A DNA stretch of 64,000 bases from contig CM054181.1 of assembly GCA_028829895.1 (NCBI GenBank), positions 32,304,759 to 32,368,758 on the forward strand. Reading direction: 5' to 3'. Numbering within the stretch: the first letter of the stretch is position 1; the number at the start of each line of letters is the position of its first letter. The DNA comes from Sinotaia quadrata (Eukaryota; Mollusca; Gastropoda; Architaenioglossa; Viviparidae). Positions 1 through 33,200 of the stretch are shown in pieces. Position numbers and translations under genes: made by a program. The notes beneath the pieces are model-generated. The model did no database searches and was not told the origin of the DNA. It saw nothing but the letters and a program-made list of their open reading frames with translations.

Positions 1-144
1 TATCTCATTCTATCTCTATCTATCTATTTATCTATCTATCTATCTATCTATCTATCTATCTATCTATCTATCTATCTATCTATCTATCTATATGTCTATA
101 TATCTATCTATCTTACACTGAATCATTACATTTTCTTGTCACAG

Positions 145-225
145 ATATTATTCTGAATGGAACTTGCAATTCTTCCAATGCGGGGTATTGCAAATCTGGA
201 ACACAATGCGACGGTGGTTTTTGTA
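145..225 (+). CDS. Cassette exon A1
   Basis: This is the reference form of exon A: 81 nt, phase 1-1, acceptor tcacag, donor gtaagtag. It reads [26 protein letters not shown], i.e. cysteine spacing x7-x5-x4, with sequons NGT and NSS. Upstream is (ATCT)n (31-90), which continues beyond the window, so more units probably lie to the left. Downstream is a long (GA)n at 461-565. Confidence 0.85.
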
Positions 226-27200: not shown

Positions 27201-30200
27201 CTACTGGTAGTGTTTCTTTGCTTCCATTCACAAAATTAACTTGTGCCAAGTCCCAGGTGTAATCATTATCGTTCACCAGAAATGCATTAACTATCATGTC
27301 TAATTTGCAGCCAGTGTTGAGTAATGTGGTAGCTTCCGTTTCATTCATTTCTACCTTGACAACATTTGACCTGGTTGGGTCATGACCTTGCAAGGTTACA
27401 TCATGCACTTTAACTTGCTTCTGTCATGGGCAATTCCATGAAAAATGCCCATTTTCACTACAGTTATAGCAGGATATACATTTTTGGTTCTGTTTCTGTT
27501 CTGAGCCAGATTGCTTCCTTTCATGCTTGACCACTCTGTCATCACTCTTTCTCCTCTCTCTCCAATTATTGTTCACATCTTCATTCCCTTTCTTTTTGTA
27601 AATGCTCATTTGAACATGGTTTGCAATAATGAATGTATGATGGCCTTGTACACACTTCATAGTACCAGATGGCTACCCTACCAATTTTATCTAATGAGGA
27701 TAAATTCCTTTCTGCTAAAAAGATTAAACATCAAATTTGTAAGTACTAATGACTAATTCTGTAATCATTTCCTCTCGGATTCCATTGTAAGTCTGAGGGA
27801 CTTCCACTAGAATCCATCTATTTTTGGAAAAGATCTATTACACACATAACATATTGCATGTGTCTTTGGTATGCTGTTTCACTGCTTGTCTGAATTTTCA
27901 ACTGTAAGTGTCAATGGTAAATGTATAACATTTGAATAGAGCAGTTTTTACTCTATGAAAATTATCTTATTCATTATCATCTAGATTATTGTTCTCATCA
28001 TTTGTGCTACCCTGTAGTAACCCTGATAAGTGAGTGGCTCAGAGTTTCTGCAGAATTTTGTTAGCTTTGGCAATTTTTTCAAAAGTGGAAAGTATCTGTG
28101 TGGTCGTTTTGTTCATAGAAGGGTAACATATGTATATCTGTAGGATACATTTCTCGCTTACACCCTAGAACATCACCAAAATGTGAACTCCACTCACTAT
28201 TTTCCTGACTTTCAATCACTAAGTGCTTTAAGGCTAGAATATGTTCCTGTTCTAGTCATTGGCATTAAGTTCATTTTCAGCTTTTAATCTTTTAGCCTCA
28301 ATCACTCATTATTTTTTTTAGCCTCTGTTCTTTTAGCTTTGTGTGCTTCTACACATTCTTCTCATGCCCTATCTGCTTGTTCTATTTCAAGTTTATCAAA
28401 TTTGGTCTTTTAGTTTGTTCCTTATCCTTATATCCAAACAAACCACCCTCTTCTCACATATCCACAATGATCTGTCTCTTATCCATTCTTTATTTATTTA
28501 GAAAAAACATGTTCTACAAAAAAATCTCTCATTGCTATTATACTACTCTAGTTTGGCAATAACAAATTTTTATTCCAAAGTTTTTTCTCTAACACTATGT
28601 TACAGCTTACAGTATTATCAAATCTTGTTATTTATTTAGGAACCTGTTCTAAATAAATTATATCAGTGATATGCACACAAAAATCCCACTCAGCGATAAA
28701 CATACTTATCCCAAAGGTATACAATACTAAGTTCACAAACTACAGTATCACCAATATTTTATACTTAGTTATCTAAATATAATATGCTGCATAGAAGTAT
28801 ATTGCTACCATTCTAACTCACATAGTTACTCAGTGGCAGCATAACACATTGACTTCTCTTCAAAATGATTTAATTAGTCAATCACACATAAGTAATAAAT
28901 CCTTAGAATAATAATAATGAGTCAATGCCTATTATACACTTCCCAGTTAACATGTACAGCACAAAGTACAAATAAAATGTGTTAATGACATATTAACACA
29001 ATAATACATATTATCCATACCTGCAAAGAATGCATTCAGAATATTCAATCATTTAATTCAAAAATGAAAAATGAAAAAAATATATACTTCAAATGACTTA
29101 AATCCAGTGCGTTTCATGATTTGCACATTGTTGTCTATGTAATAAAACGACCAGTTATAACATTTTCCCCTTTGGTTTAATGAATAGTCATGTGTTACAA
29201 AGTATCTCACTGATGAGATTCTATTCATTATAACTAATCCCGGATTGTTACATACCAGTTTATCTTTAACAACCCTGTCTCAGTACCAGGCTTTAAAATT
29301 ATTAATTATAATATACACACCTACACTGAAGACAGACTGGTCACCTAATTTGCCCTTCAGCCATTATAATTAAGTTGCCATCGAGTTCCAGTATTCAATG
29401 TAATGACAGGTAAATTCATATACAAAACATGGGCTCGAGAACCTTGACATATTACAACATAGATTATATTTTATTTCACATTTAGCTCCACCCCTACCAA
29501 CCCTCAGTCATAGAGTATAATCAAGTTAATTCTTTTGTTAAAATAACAAGAAATAAATTTAATCATCTACAAAAATATAATATACAATCTGGTACAATAT
29601 GAGGTACACATGGGTCTCCCAATACCTCATATTCTGTCAATGTATTAGAGTCAAATCGTAAACACTGTTCAAAGTCAGTTTGCTGAGACTAGCCACTTAG
29701 CCGTAATTTATGTAATCAAGAAGTGCACCTTGATGAAATCACATACACAAACAGTCCATAATTGACAGTGATTATCATGGGATCCATCTTAACTTGTCTC
29801 ACTGTCTTCAGCCTCAGGCACTAACCAATGTGATGCACAGACATAGACGTAGATGAAACAAAAGCCAAAAGCTTAAACCAAATGCCTGCTGAAATAGAAT
29901 ACACGATTCTATCAGCATCATCTTACAAGTGGCAATAAAAAATAGGTAGTTCTTACACTGGTAATAGCAAGAAAGGGTTGTACACACAAACCAACACATT
30001 TAACCATAACAAATAAATCTCAACTTTCCAATAACTCAAAATTCTATTTCAACAAATAATTTCACAATAGAAATATCTAACTGTAAACTACCAAACTTTA
30101 TATTGGTGATTCTTTCTTTCTTTTCTTTTCCCCTACCCCACGGGTGTGCGTTGTGGGTGGCTGACTAACCAACGTGTGAGAGGAAACCCCTAGATCAATA

Positions 30201-33200
30201 AATTTGAATTTGTATTTTGACATTGAGACTTTTTCTGTCTATTGTTTTGAAGAGTGGTTGTGGTCATTGTTACACGTTGTGTTGTCTGCGCTGTCTACAC
30301 TTCACCCTTACCCGTATGCAATCACTCATGCAGAATAAAATTCGAGATAAATAACCATCATGGTATTCTGTGTGTGGATTTGTAATAATATCTATGCAAG
30401 TCCTATGTGGCGTCGACTAGCCACCACCCTCCTTTCTTCGGAGAGAAGGGTACAGGTGACAGTAGGCATTGCACCACAGTTTGCAAGGACGGCTAAAGGT
30501 ATTACATAGAAAAATGTGGAAAAAAATTAAAAATTAATTAACCTAGGCATAATTTGCCTAAACCAGGGGTCAGCAAAGTCCAGCCTTTAGGCCAGATATG
30601 GCCTAGCTAGTATTCCAGTCTGGCCTGATGCCCCCACTTCCCCAGGTATTTATTATTGGATCTGACCTAATTAAATTGTGGCTGTTATGTTCCCTTCATT
30701 TCAACAATCTAAATATAGTTATTTTTTTTTAAAGTAAGAAATCCGAAATTATTTTAATTGTACAAATACTTGCTTCGTTAAAGTTCAACATTAGTGTATG
30801 TACTGTAGGTATGACTGGCCTAATCAATACACAATGATAATTATTTCAATCTTTTTCTAACTTATGTCCATCCCTACCCCTTGAAGTTGTACACTGTACA
30901 CTGTACACTGTACATCGTCTTCTCTTTATTACATTAAATTGCACAAAATAAAGTGCAAGTTTTTATTCAAGCCTAGTAGTGGTGTACTTTTGACTATTTT
31001 TAATGAAGAAGATTGCAGATTACTCGCCGACCTGTGCTTAAAATTCATTTTTTTATCGTACGGTATTTTTGAATAAAACAACCTTTCCTTGGACACCTTG
31101 TTTCTTCTGGACTAGTGTGCCTTCTTGATCTCCTGAAATGGCCTATTAGTCCAAAAAGTTTGCCGCCCTCTGGTTGTGACTCTGCTAACAATATCGCTTG
31201 ATATTAGAATCCTTCAATCCATCCAGGTATCCATTGATAAATCCATTCATCCATCCATTCAAACATCCATACTTCCATCAATTTGCCTCTCGGTCTGCCT
31301 GAATATCTATCTACATACCTATATACAAAACCACTTTCAAATCTAACTATCTAACACTGAATCATTTAATGCGTTTCACACAGATATTAATCTGAATGGA
31401 AATTGCAATTCTACCAATGCGGGGTATTGCAAATCTGGCACTCAATGCGACGGTGGTTCTTGTAGTAAGTAGATTAATGAATATAGATGTGTGAAAAAAA
31501 TTCAATTGTAATTTAAATAAAGAATTAATTATAATTATTGACGATAATGATTCATATCAAATGTATTTCGAATAAACTTGTGCATTTAACGTCAATAATA
31601 ATAATTAAAATAAAGCCTACCTATAATTTATTTTTTGTGATATATCTTCAATCATTAGTATATCAGAAGAACTGACAGACAGACAGACGGACGGACACAA
31701 GGAGAGACGGATTTATGGATGAATGGAGGGATAAATGGATGGATAGATAGACTGGCAGAGAGAGAGAGACAGAGACAGACAGACAGACAGAGATAAATAG
31801 ACAGACAGACATACAGATAGATAGATAGATAGATAGATAGATAGATAGATAGATAGATAGATAGATAGATAGATAGATAGATTTAAGTAAGATAATTTGA
31901 ATGGGAACAGTAAGTAATGAATTGTTTATTAATATATAATTTGCTTGATTTTATTTACTAATGTATTTAAGTACCGATGTATTGAATACATGATTATTTT
32001 GACACTTTTACATATAGTATTATATCTTTATTTCGACAGAACTGAGTATTGGAGAGAACTGTACAGGAAACACACAATTATGCATAACTGGAACAACATG
32101 TGAAAATAACAGATGCAGTATGTATTCCTCTTTTCAAATTTTGCTAATTAACATTCAGACTGAATATCTTAATTTTTGCACAAGATATATTGATTTCAAC
32201 AGGATCACGGTAAATTTCCGAAATACAATTATATTTTCATTAATGTCTCTTTTAATATCACTATATTCCATGATATTTTAAACACATTCAACGTGTGTCC
32301 TTCCATCACTTGATATTATAACCCATCCATCCAGGTATCCATCGATAAGTCTCTCTGTCTGCCTGGCTACTACCAAACATCTTCTTATCTATCTAACAAT
32401 GAATCATTATAATCGTTTCTCACAGATATTAATCTAAATGGAACTTGCAATTCTACCAATGCTGCGTACTGCAAATCAGAAACACAATGCGACGGTGGTT
32501 CTTGTAGTAAGTAGACTATTGAATATATATATATATATATATATATATATATATATGTTTATCGAACACATTTATGTATTTAACTCCTGTGATAATTAAA
32601 AATCAAACTTACCAAAATATTAATACATGTATTATTCATTTGTATATCATAAGGATATATATACAGAGAGAGAGAGAGAGAGAGAGAGAGAGAGAGAGAG
32701 AGAGAGAGAGAGAGAGAGAGGGAGACAGTTAGATAGATAAAGATAGAGATAGATAGATATAAATGTGACGGGGTTATTTTCAGTTTTGAAAACTAACGAT
32801 AACATTTTGAGGAACAAAGACAGCAGACTTGTAAAGTCTTTCAAATGTTGTTTTATTTATCTCATATAGAGTTTTGGTCATTGAGTCCCACACCACCCTC
32901 TTTTGTACTTGCGGGAAGCTTTTTGGGTCAAGCCGATTGCCCGTTGTGGTGTAGGTAGTTTTGGTGGAATGGATAGGTTGCTTGAGCCTCGTGGATGAAG
33001 TTGACTTTCTTCGTTTTTTCTTTGAATTGGATAATAAAAAAAAACTACTCACTAGTTTGCATTACATCAGCAAATCTAGAATATCCTTGCCTCGAGCGTT
33101 TACTTCAAACCAGACACCTTCAAAAATACCATCATACCAAGGTCGGGTCGCTCTGACAATTTAACAATTTATATAACAATTTAATTAAAAAATAGGGATA

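Follow-up and report, generated by a model that had tools for sequence, protein, structure and literature searches.

Introduction

Symmetric small exons and in-frame skipping are familiar from the titin PEVK and tropoelastin arrays, and elastin alternates two exon types. The closest precedent for the locus studied here is SmPoMuc of Schistosoma mansoni, in whose published description genomic repeats of about 1 kb, with one tiny exon each and imperfect GA microsatellites between them, fall into two types, are more than 93% identical through concerted evolution, and give a predicted glycosylation that depends on the number and type of repeats (PMC2576457). Progranulin and nebulin also come close. 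As described, progranulin has non-identical N- and C-type exons in tandem, each coding for half a cysteine-rich module (PMC4527844), and nebulin has many small repeat exons, with 12 cassette exons between exons 137 and 152, toward the Z-disk end, whose skipping correlates with Z-disk width (PMC7370890). In the present study, we analysed a stretch of 64,000 nucleotides from the gastropod Sinotaia quadrata (assembly GCA_028829895.1, contig CM054181.1, positions 32,304,759 to 32,368,758 of the forward strand). This whole stretch is called the window below, and positions are counted from its first base. It carries a tandem array of at least 37 small exons of two kinds, A and B, each coding for a four-cysteine module, in what may be a receptor tyrosine phosphatase (RPTP) gene.

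Results

The exon anatomy of the array, its reading frame, splice signals, conservation and traces of duplication were read directly from the DNA. With A1 and B1 as queries (blastn, E 1e-3), 37 mini-exons were found in the window at 145-32506, 19 of type A and 18 of type B, all on the plus strand and none on the minus strand, in the strictly alternating order A1, B1 and so on to A18, B18 and A19. This agrees with an earlier note on the same DNA, which had claimed at least 37 alternating four-cysteine cassette exons. The A exons are 81 bp long, except A9 with 82 bp, the B exons are 78 bp long, and 36 of the 37 lengths are divisible by 3. Nucleotide profiles built from all copies recovered these 37 exons (19 A, 18 B) without adding a confident copy; among the 13 extra matches (nine to the A profile and four to the B profile, E 1 to 9.8), ten overlap known exons and three are weak (E 3.9-8.7). 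An A-B unit takes up about 1.3 kb including its introns, which measure 232-791 nt inside the array, the intron between B17 and A18 excepted, and are shortened in units 11 and 12 (305 and 232 nt). Since the first base of the window lies in repeat-rich, intron-like sequence resembling that ahead of the other A exons, the array probably extends to the left beyond the window edge, and 37 is a minimum.

The A exons, all on the plus strand, were located by blastn and checked by translation (A9 by a frame check) at 145-225 (A1), 1607-1687 (A2), 3042-3122 (A3), 4353-4433 (A4), 5765-5845 (A5), 7046-7126 (A6), 8447-8527 (A7), 9784-9864 (A8), 11089-11170 (A9, one base longer than the other A exons), 12334-12414 (A10), 13612-13692 (A11), 14506-14586 (A12), 15567-15647 (A13), 16865-16945 (A14), 18218-18298 (A15), 19552-19632 (A16), 20812-20892 (A17), 31384-31464 (A18) and 32426-32506 (A19, the final cassette). 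The B exons, on the same strand and found in the same way, are at 749-826 (B1), 2176-2253 (B2, an apparently recombinant exon, by unit comparison), 3615-3692 (B3), 4901-4978 (B4), 6342-6419 (B5), 7578-7655 (B6), 9074-9151 (B7), 10418-10495 (B8), 11648-11725 (B9), 12850-12927 (B10), 14123-14200 (B11), 14819-14896 (B12), 16110-16187 (B13), 17414-17491 (B14), 18825-18902 (B15), 20108-20185 (B16), 21398-21475 (B17) and 32040-32117 (B18).

Each of the 37 exons is preceded by an ACAG acceptor and followed by a GT donor, which upholds the claim of intact splice sites. The donor is GTAAGT in 19/19 A exons. Among the 18 B donors, 12 depart from GTAAGT: six are GTAAGT, eight GTAAGA, three GTAAAT (B10, B16 and B17) and one GTATGT (B18). 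The 36 in-frame exons have phase 1 at either end (36/37, A9 excepted) and are thus symmetric tandem cassette exons. The last base of every exon is A, and the first bases are AT in A exons, AA in B exons and GA in the exon downstream of the array. The junction codons are AAT (Asn) before A, AAA (Lys) before B and AGA (Arg) before the downstream exon, with no stop among them. Because all exons end in A and share the 1-1 phase, the 36 exons can be joined in any order without a stop, and the earlier note was right about such free joining as far as these 36 are concerned. It was also right in setting A9 apart, as this exon gives an immediate stop when joined to an A exon, a B exon or the downstream exon. 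A single one-base indel was counted over the 2944 bases of exon, whereas the 10110 bases of intron hold 17 singletons (P 0.04; some units were omitted from each intron alignment). The 17 singletons lie in introns of units 4, 6, 8, 9, 10, 11, 13 and 16, three of them in unit 9. Since such indels are also present in introns, the extra base of A9 may be a sequencing error, or the exon may be truly broken.

The consensus modules are NIILNGTC-x7-C-x5-C-x4-C for A and KLSIGGNC-x6-C-x5-C-x4-C for B. They are 26-27 residues long, and the four cysteines are retained in all 36 in-frame modules. Two N-glycosylation sequons were found in 18/19 A and 13/18 B modules and one in the others, with a total of 66 across the 36 joined modules. 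After the array, the exon model places a six-cysteine exon at 34652-34789 (plus strand, phase 1-1), whose first part resembles A in a shuffle comparison. The score of A against this exon was reached by 3 of 3000 full shuffles and by 39 of 3000 with the cysteines held fixed, and the score of A against B by 10 and 151 of 3000, respectively. B and the six-cysteine exon could not be distinguished from shuffles (220 full and 353 cysteine-fixed, of 3000). A shared origin of A and the six-cysteine exon is plausible from these scores, and a shared origin of B with either of them is unproven.

The exons are better conserved than the introns beside them. In units 8-17, variable sites make up 8 of 81 in exon A and 43 of 120 in the intron that follows it (Fisher P 2.7e-5; unit 12 omitted). 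In exon B they make up 10 of 78, whereas the intron ahead has 43 of 127 (P 9e-4) and the one behind 40 of 120 (P 1.3e-3; units 11 and 12 omitted). The ratio of nonsynonymous to synonymous divergence (dN/dS) of the A modules is 0.30 overall (18 exons, A9 omitted) and 0.19 in units 8-17. In a variant-count test, which is weaker, nonsynonymous variants made up 11/19 in A (P 0.04), 18/25 in B (P 0.29) and 29/44 in both combined (P 0.045). These comparisons indicate that A is constrained, and that B retains its cysteines yet tolerates change at other positions.

Traces of duplication are seen along the array. Units 4-5 and units 6-7 are two copies of a two-unit block (4353-9783, plus strand), 97.8% identical over 2666 aligned bases, introns included, the alignment having 99 gap columns. 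By unit comparison, unit 2 seems to be a recombinant joined within exon B2 or shortly past its end (interval 2219-2261, plus strand), and an assembly misjoin is also possible. Left of the junction there is no mismatch with unit 3 (B3) at offsets -60 to 84 from the exon start, i.e. to 7 bases past B2; right of it there is none with unit 1 (B1) at offsets 44 to 449, from exon base 45 on. The lowest identity to the first copies is found at the 3' end, where A19 is 88.9% identical to A1 and B18 is 83.3% identical to B1; A18 and A10 both stand at 92.6%. The near-identical blocks, the recombinant-looking unit and the divergent 3' end together form the pattern expected of an array altered by unequal exchange, and the blocks and unit 2 indicate that copy number has changed in its past.

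The layout given in the earlier note is right in the order of the exons and needs two corrections: the array is cut by the left edge of the window, and B17 and A18 are separated by a gap of 9.9 kb with retroelement remains. This intron of 9908 bp (21476-31383) holds retroelement fragments on the minus strand at 22825-27672, where four of five separately searched reading frames match Pfam, namely RNase H (E 1.1e-9), reverse transcriptase (E 7.5e-12), integrase core (E 5.3e-6, at cutoff) and zinc knuckle (E 5.5e-5). Two similar stretches, at 22510-22611 and 30462-30559 (76%, same direction), flank the retroelement frames on either side. Left of A18, a stretch at 31193-31256 (plus strand) resembles the inner part of the post-B introns and matches 13 of 17 of them. 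Because these include the intron of B17 itself, a trace of a second post-B intron is present, and at least one A-B unit has probably been lost or interrupted between B17 and A18.

Simple repeats are distributed by intron type. Over the introns from 226 to 34651, GA runs are present in 19/19 post-A introns and, among the 18 post-B introns, only in the retroelement-bearing one (11 nt); CT or TCTA runs are present in 16/18 post-B introns and 0/19 post-A introns. Pairing of the flanking introns was considered as a general splicing switch and rejected. The mean duplex energy across exons was -107 kcal/mol for 17 A exons and -99 kcal/mol for 18 B exons, which is near that of A-type control intron pairs (-93 kcal/mol; B-type control, -32 kcal/mol). 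The longest perfect complements were 8-40 around A and 9-48 around B, versus 9-29 and 8-19 in the controls, and so overlap both controls; the long ones lie mostly in units 1-8, where such a switch would be possible.

Downstream of the six-cysteine exon, the plus strand carries a series of exons with fibronectin type III (FN3) domains. These are an FN3 domain in a single phase 1-1 exon at 36000-36287 (Pfam fn3 E 3e-7), an FN3-like domain in a single phase 1-1 exon at 40072-40341 (fn3 E 2.6e-5, 24.8 bits against a cutoff of 25), and an FN3 domain at 47067-47939 in exons 47067-47260 and 47738-47939 (phases 1:0:1), which is the best fn3 stretch. Two further units, whose position suggests an FN3-like domain, lie at 49919-51702 (exons 49919-50089 and 51571-51702, phases 1:1:1) and 52765-57389 (exons 52765-52910, 56450-56548 and 57323-57389, phases 1:0:0:1). 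A membrane-proximal-like segment containing RRRRS follows at 60611-63890 (exons 60611-60784, 61405-61530, 63430-63574 and 63808-63890) and ends in phase 1. Its first exon has a GC donor (GCAAGT) at 60785, where a nearby GT alternative loses the frame. Joined, the downstream exons give 745 residues with Pfam fn3 at E 3e-25 in four stretches. The final 176 of them weakly resemble the membrane-proximal domain of PTPRJ (Pfam PTP_tm, E 6.5e-4 and 20.4 bits, below the gathering score of 26.3).

Single-exon 1:1 FN3 domains are not specific to the R3 class of RPTPs. In order, the intron phases of the FN3 and FN3-like units are 1:1, 1:1, 1:0:1, 1:1:1 and 1:0:0:1, and those of the last three exons 1:1:2:1. 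The phases given for R3 RPTPs in the sections of the survey used here are 1:1, 1:0:1, 1:1:1 and 1:2:1 for FN3 domains, with internal phases 1 and 2 in the deuterostome juxtamembrane region, so that four of the five units and the last three exons show R3 patterns (PMC5336234). If exon 60611 belongs to the juxtamembrane domain, there is one further phase-1 intron in it. The FN3 ectodomain is a point of likeness to the R3 RPTPs as there described, and the putative long membrane-proximal domain and most FN3 intron phases may be others (PMC5336234). An R3-like RPTP is the likeliest class, though not proven, and its transmembrane and phosphatase exons would start beyond 64000.

Some other repeats were noted among these exons. 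A tandem repeat of about 57 bp at 62614-63428 (12.5 copies in 62728-63428) ends directly before the RRRRS exon at 63430, and a 26-bp tandem repeat (12.6 copies, 35330-35660) lies in the intron following the six-cysteine exon. An interspersed repeat of about 110-125 bp occurs in introns of this gene at 33113-33220, 38857-38968, 46178-46304 and 62491-62612 (pairs 67-75% alike). At 54052-54921 and 55008-55910 lies a two-part inverted repeat (74% and 68% alike), perhaps a folded-back transposon.

Relatives of the array were sought in several collections. No protein relative was found at E 0.001 among a capped set of 7988 candidates scored with a 931-residue join (seven cassettes from the A1-B1 and A17-A19 regions and the downstream exons), or at E 1 among 560 candidates scored with 232 residues (the seven cassettes and the six-cysteine exon). 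There were no relatives in 18 stretches of viral contigs, and 107 stretches of prokaryotic genome contigs gave a single 19-residue match in a Myxococcales metagenome-assembled genome, which was taken as chance; as these two collections are viral and prokaryotic by description, and the protein collection holds an uncertain number of animals, an absence of relatives says little. A four-cassette query of PDB gave two matches, the best at E 1. In Pfam, neither the stretch from A17 to the six-cysteine exon nor this exon alone matched a family, and the A/B cassettes gave no granulin match. Like other families, the EB module (PF01683) stayed below its gathering score of 24.3 (E 0.057 and 0.036, 13.9 and 14.6 bits), so the cassettes were not assigned to it; its model of 52 positions would span about two of them. 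PF22432 reached a better E-value than EB (E 0.0036, 17.9 bits against a cutoff of 27), and such weak matches below cutoff mean little here. Rfam and tRNA scans of the window gave nothing. Among the matches listed from the openly licensed PMC literature (titles and abstract openings), there was no description of such an array.

Discussion

Taken together, we read the array, with moderate confidence, as the N-terminal ectodomain part of an R3-like RPTP gene, coding for an expandable, N-glycosylated and disulphide-rich stalk and spliced mostly in series. Tandem duplication and unequal recombination would have expanded a two-exon A-B unit to at least 37 exons, each giving one small four-cysteine module with presumably two disulphides and one or two sequons. 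Spliced in series, the modules would form a long glycosylated stalk ahead of the FN3 domains. Given their 1-1 phase, exons could be skipped, or units gained or lost in the genome, and stalk length alone would change. Splicing in series would be feasible because the array introns, that between B17 and A18 apart, are long enough for it. We would expect transcripts to contain most exons in their genomic order, copy number to vary between alleles, and skipping to be sporadic or tissue-biased. When donor strength is judged against the consensus, B10, B16 and B17, with their GTAAAT donors, are the best candidates for skipping. The protein class, the splicing in series, the function as a stalk and the copy-number variation between individuals are what we infer from this anatomy.

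Several results weigh against this reading. The window contains no transmembrane or catalytic exon and no gene start or N-terminus, and since these fall outside it, the label of receptor is a putative one. The membrane-proximal-like segment has no PDB match up to E 10, and the PDB search with all 745 residues gave FN3 proteins of various kinds. Because neogenin was the best of these (E 2e-4) and RPTPs made up only 7 of the 18 matches, FN3 similarity alone is not specific to RPTPs. The FN3-like unit with phases 1:0:0:1 shows a pattern that is not named for R3 RPTPs in the sections of the survey used (PMC5336234). The B modules are weakly constrained, with dN/dS of 0.64 overall (18 exons) and 1.93 in units 8-17. 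In the same units, synonymous divergence (pS 0.083 for A, 0.034 for B) also lies below that of introns (0.12-0.13), so the exons may owe some of their conservation to conversion or to constraint on splicing. Finally, A9, if sequenced correctly, would end translation under strict serial inclusion.

Regulated combinatorial splicing, in which a chosen or random subset of A and B exons per cell or tissue would give many stalk lengths and compositions, is possible, but we regard it as unlikely. Any of the 36 in-frame exons can replace another without loss of frame, the donors differ between A (GTAAGT in all) and B (in 6/18, with GTAAAT in three), and the GA runs after A and CT or TCTA runs after B would fit such regulation, as repressors, PTB among them, can bind to pyrimidine repeats close to acceptors. 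A9, if its extra base is real, must be skipped for a full-length product, the flank complementarity is far beyond the B-type control, and SmPoMuc transcripts are reported to range from 1 to 100 repeats (PMC2576457). The complementarity is, however, near the A-type control, with long perfect complements mostly in units 1-8, and the repeats descend from a single ancestral unit, so that their regularity does not count as separate evidence. Duplication of extracellular modules usually yields symmetric 1-1 exons, and this symmetry predicts that skipping is tolerated, not that it is used. Of the variable stalk proposed in the earlier note, the frame compatibility of 36 exons and past changes in copy number stand, but the DNA itself shows no skipping or choice of exons. 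The fullest form of the idea, in which interchangeable four-cysteine modules are chosen per transcript and vary in number between individuals, tuning ligand reach, clustering and glycosylation, seems to us quite doubtful.

An inflated or collapsed assembly, with a real array shorter or longer than that seen and with units 2, 3, 5 and 7 or the blocks 4-5 and 6-7 multiplied or misjoined, is improbable. It would account for units 2, 3, 5 and 7 agreeing at a rounded 100% over the first 220 bases of the post-A intron, for the clean switch of type in unit 2, and for the single extra base of A9 together with the three singleton indels in unit 9 introns, as sequencing errors would give. Most pairs of units 8-19, however, differ by at least 10% in their introns, too much for assembly copies, the exceptions being mainly units 13-16, where several segment pairs are 94-98% alike; the blocks 4-5 and 6-7 likewise differ at 2.2% of sites, besides their gap columns. 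That the array is decaying and unused is suggested by the frame break in A9, the weak constraint on B and the retroelement remains inside it, but with 36 of 37 frames and all 37 splice borders intact and with exons far more conserved than introns, this is very improbable. Tandem homologous exons are also the usual substrate of mutually exclusive choice as in Dscam, by which a single A or a single B would be selected. Such a choice is hardly credible here, as lengths divisible by 3 in 36/37 exons and introns of 232-791 nt (B17-A18 apart) permit serial splicing, no frame or steric constraint opposes joint inclusion, and near-identical copies leave little to select between; the sequence pairing considered in this judgement is that between the two introns flanking each exon.

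We return to the serially spliced stalk of an R3-like RPTP as the preferred reading. RPTP signalling is thought to depend on the size and clustering of the ectodomain, e.g. in CD45, and if the protein class is true, natural length variants would allow a test of the ectodomain-size idea. The gene would also give the SmPoMuc architecture another animal example and would raise the question whether GA microsatellites drive changes in exon copy number. Its product would be an RPTP whose ectodomain owes its length to a recombining array of exons, something unmentioned for R3 RPTPs in the sections of the survey used here (PMC5336234).

Comparison with known systems

The titin PEVK and tropoelastin arrays are unrelated to the A/B array in sequence and setting. 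In the survey of R3 RPTPs, as far as its main text goes, the words 'mollusc', 'Lottia' and 'oyster' have 0 occurrences, and the ectodomains are described as FN3 repeats, with N-terminal cysteine cassettes unmentioned in the sections used (PMC5336234). The earlier note knew of no described animal receptor with a two-type mini-exon array. The searches did not contradict this, but the structural idea is not new, as the accounts of SmPoMuc (PMC2576457), nebulin (PMC7370890) and progranulin (PMC4527844) make clear. In SmPoMuc, as described, the mucin exon has 27 bp and the r1 and r2 exons lie in separate gene clusters (PMC2576457), whereas here A and B alternate strictly, have 78-82 bp and carry four cysteines each. 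A granulin has twelve cysteines, six per exon, and mammalian progranulin is described with 7.5 modules (PMC4527844), while the repeats of nebulin are intracellular and 35 residues long (PMC7370890). The array thus looks like a variant of a known design and not a new kind, one that joins the ideas of SmPoMuc, progranulin and nebulin in an apparent RPTP ectodomain.

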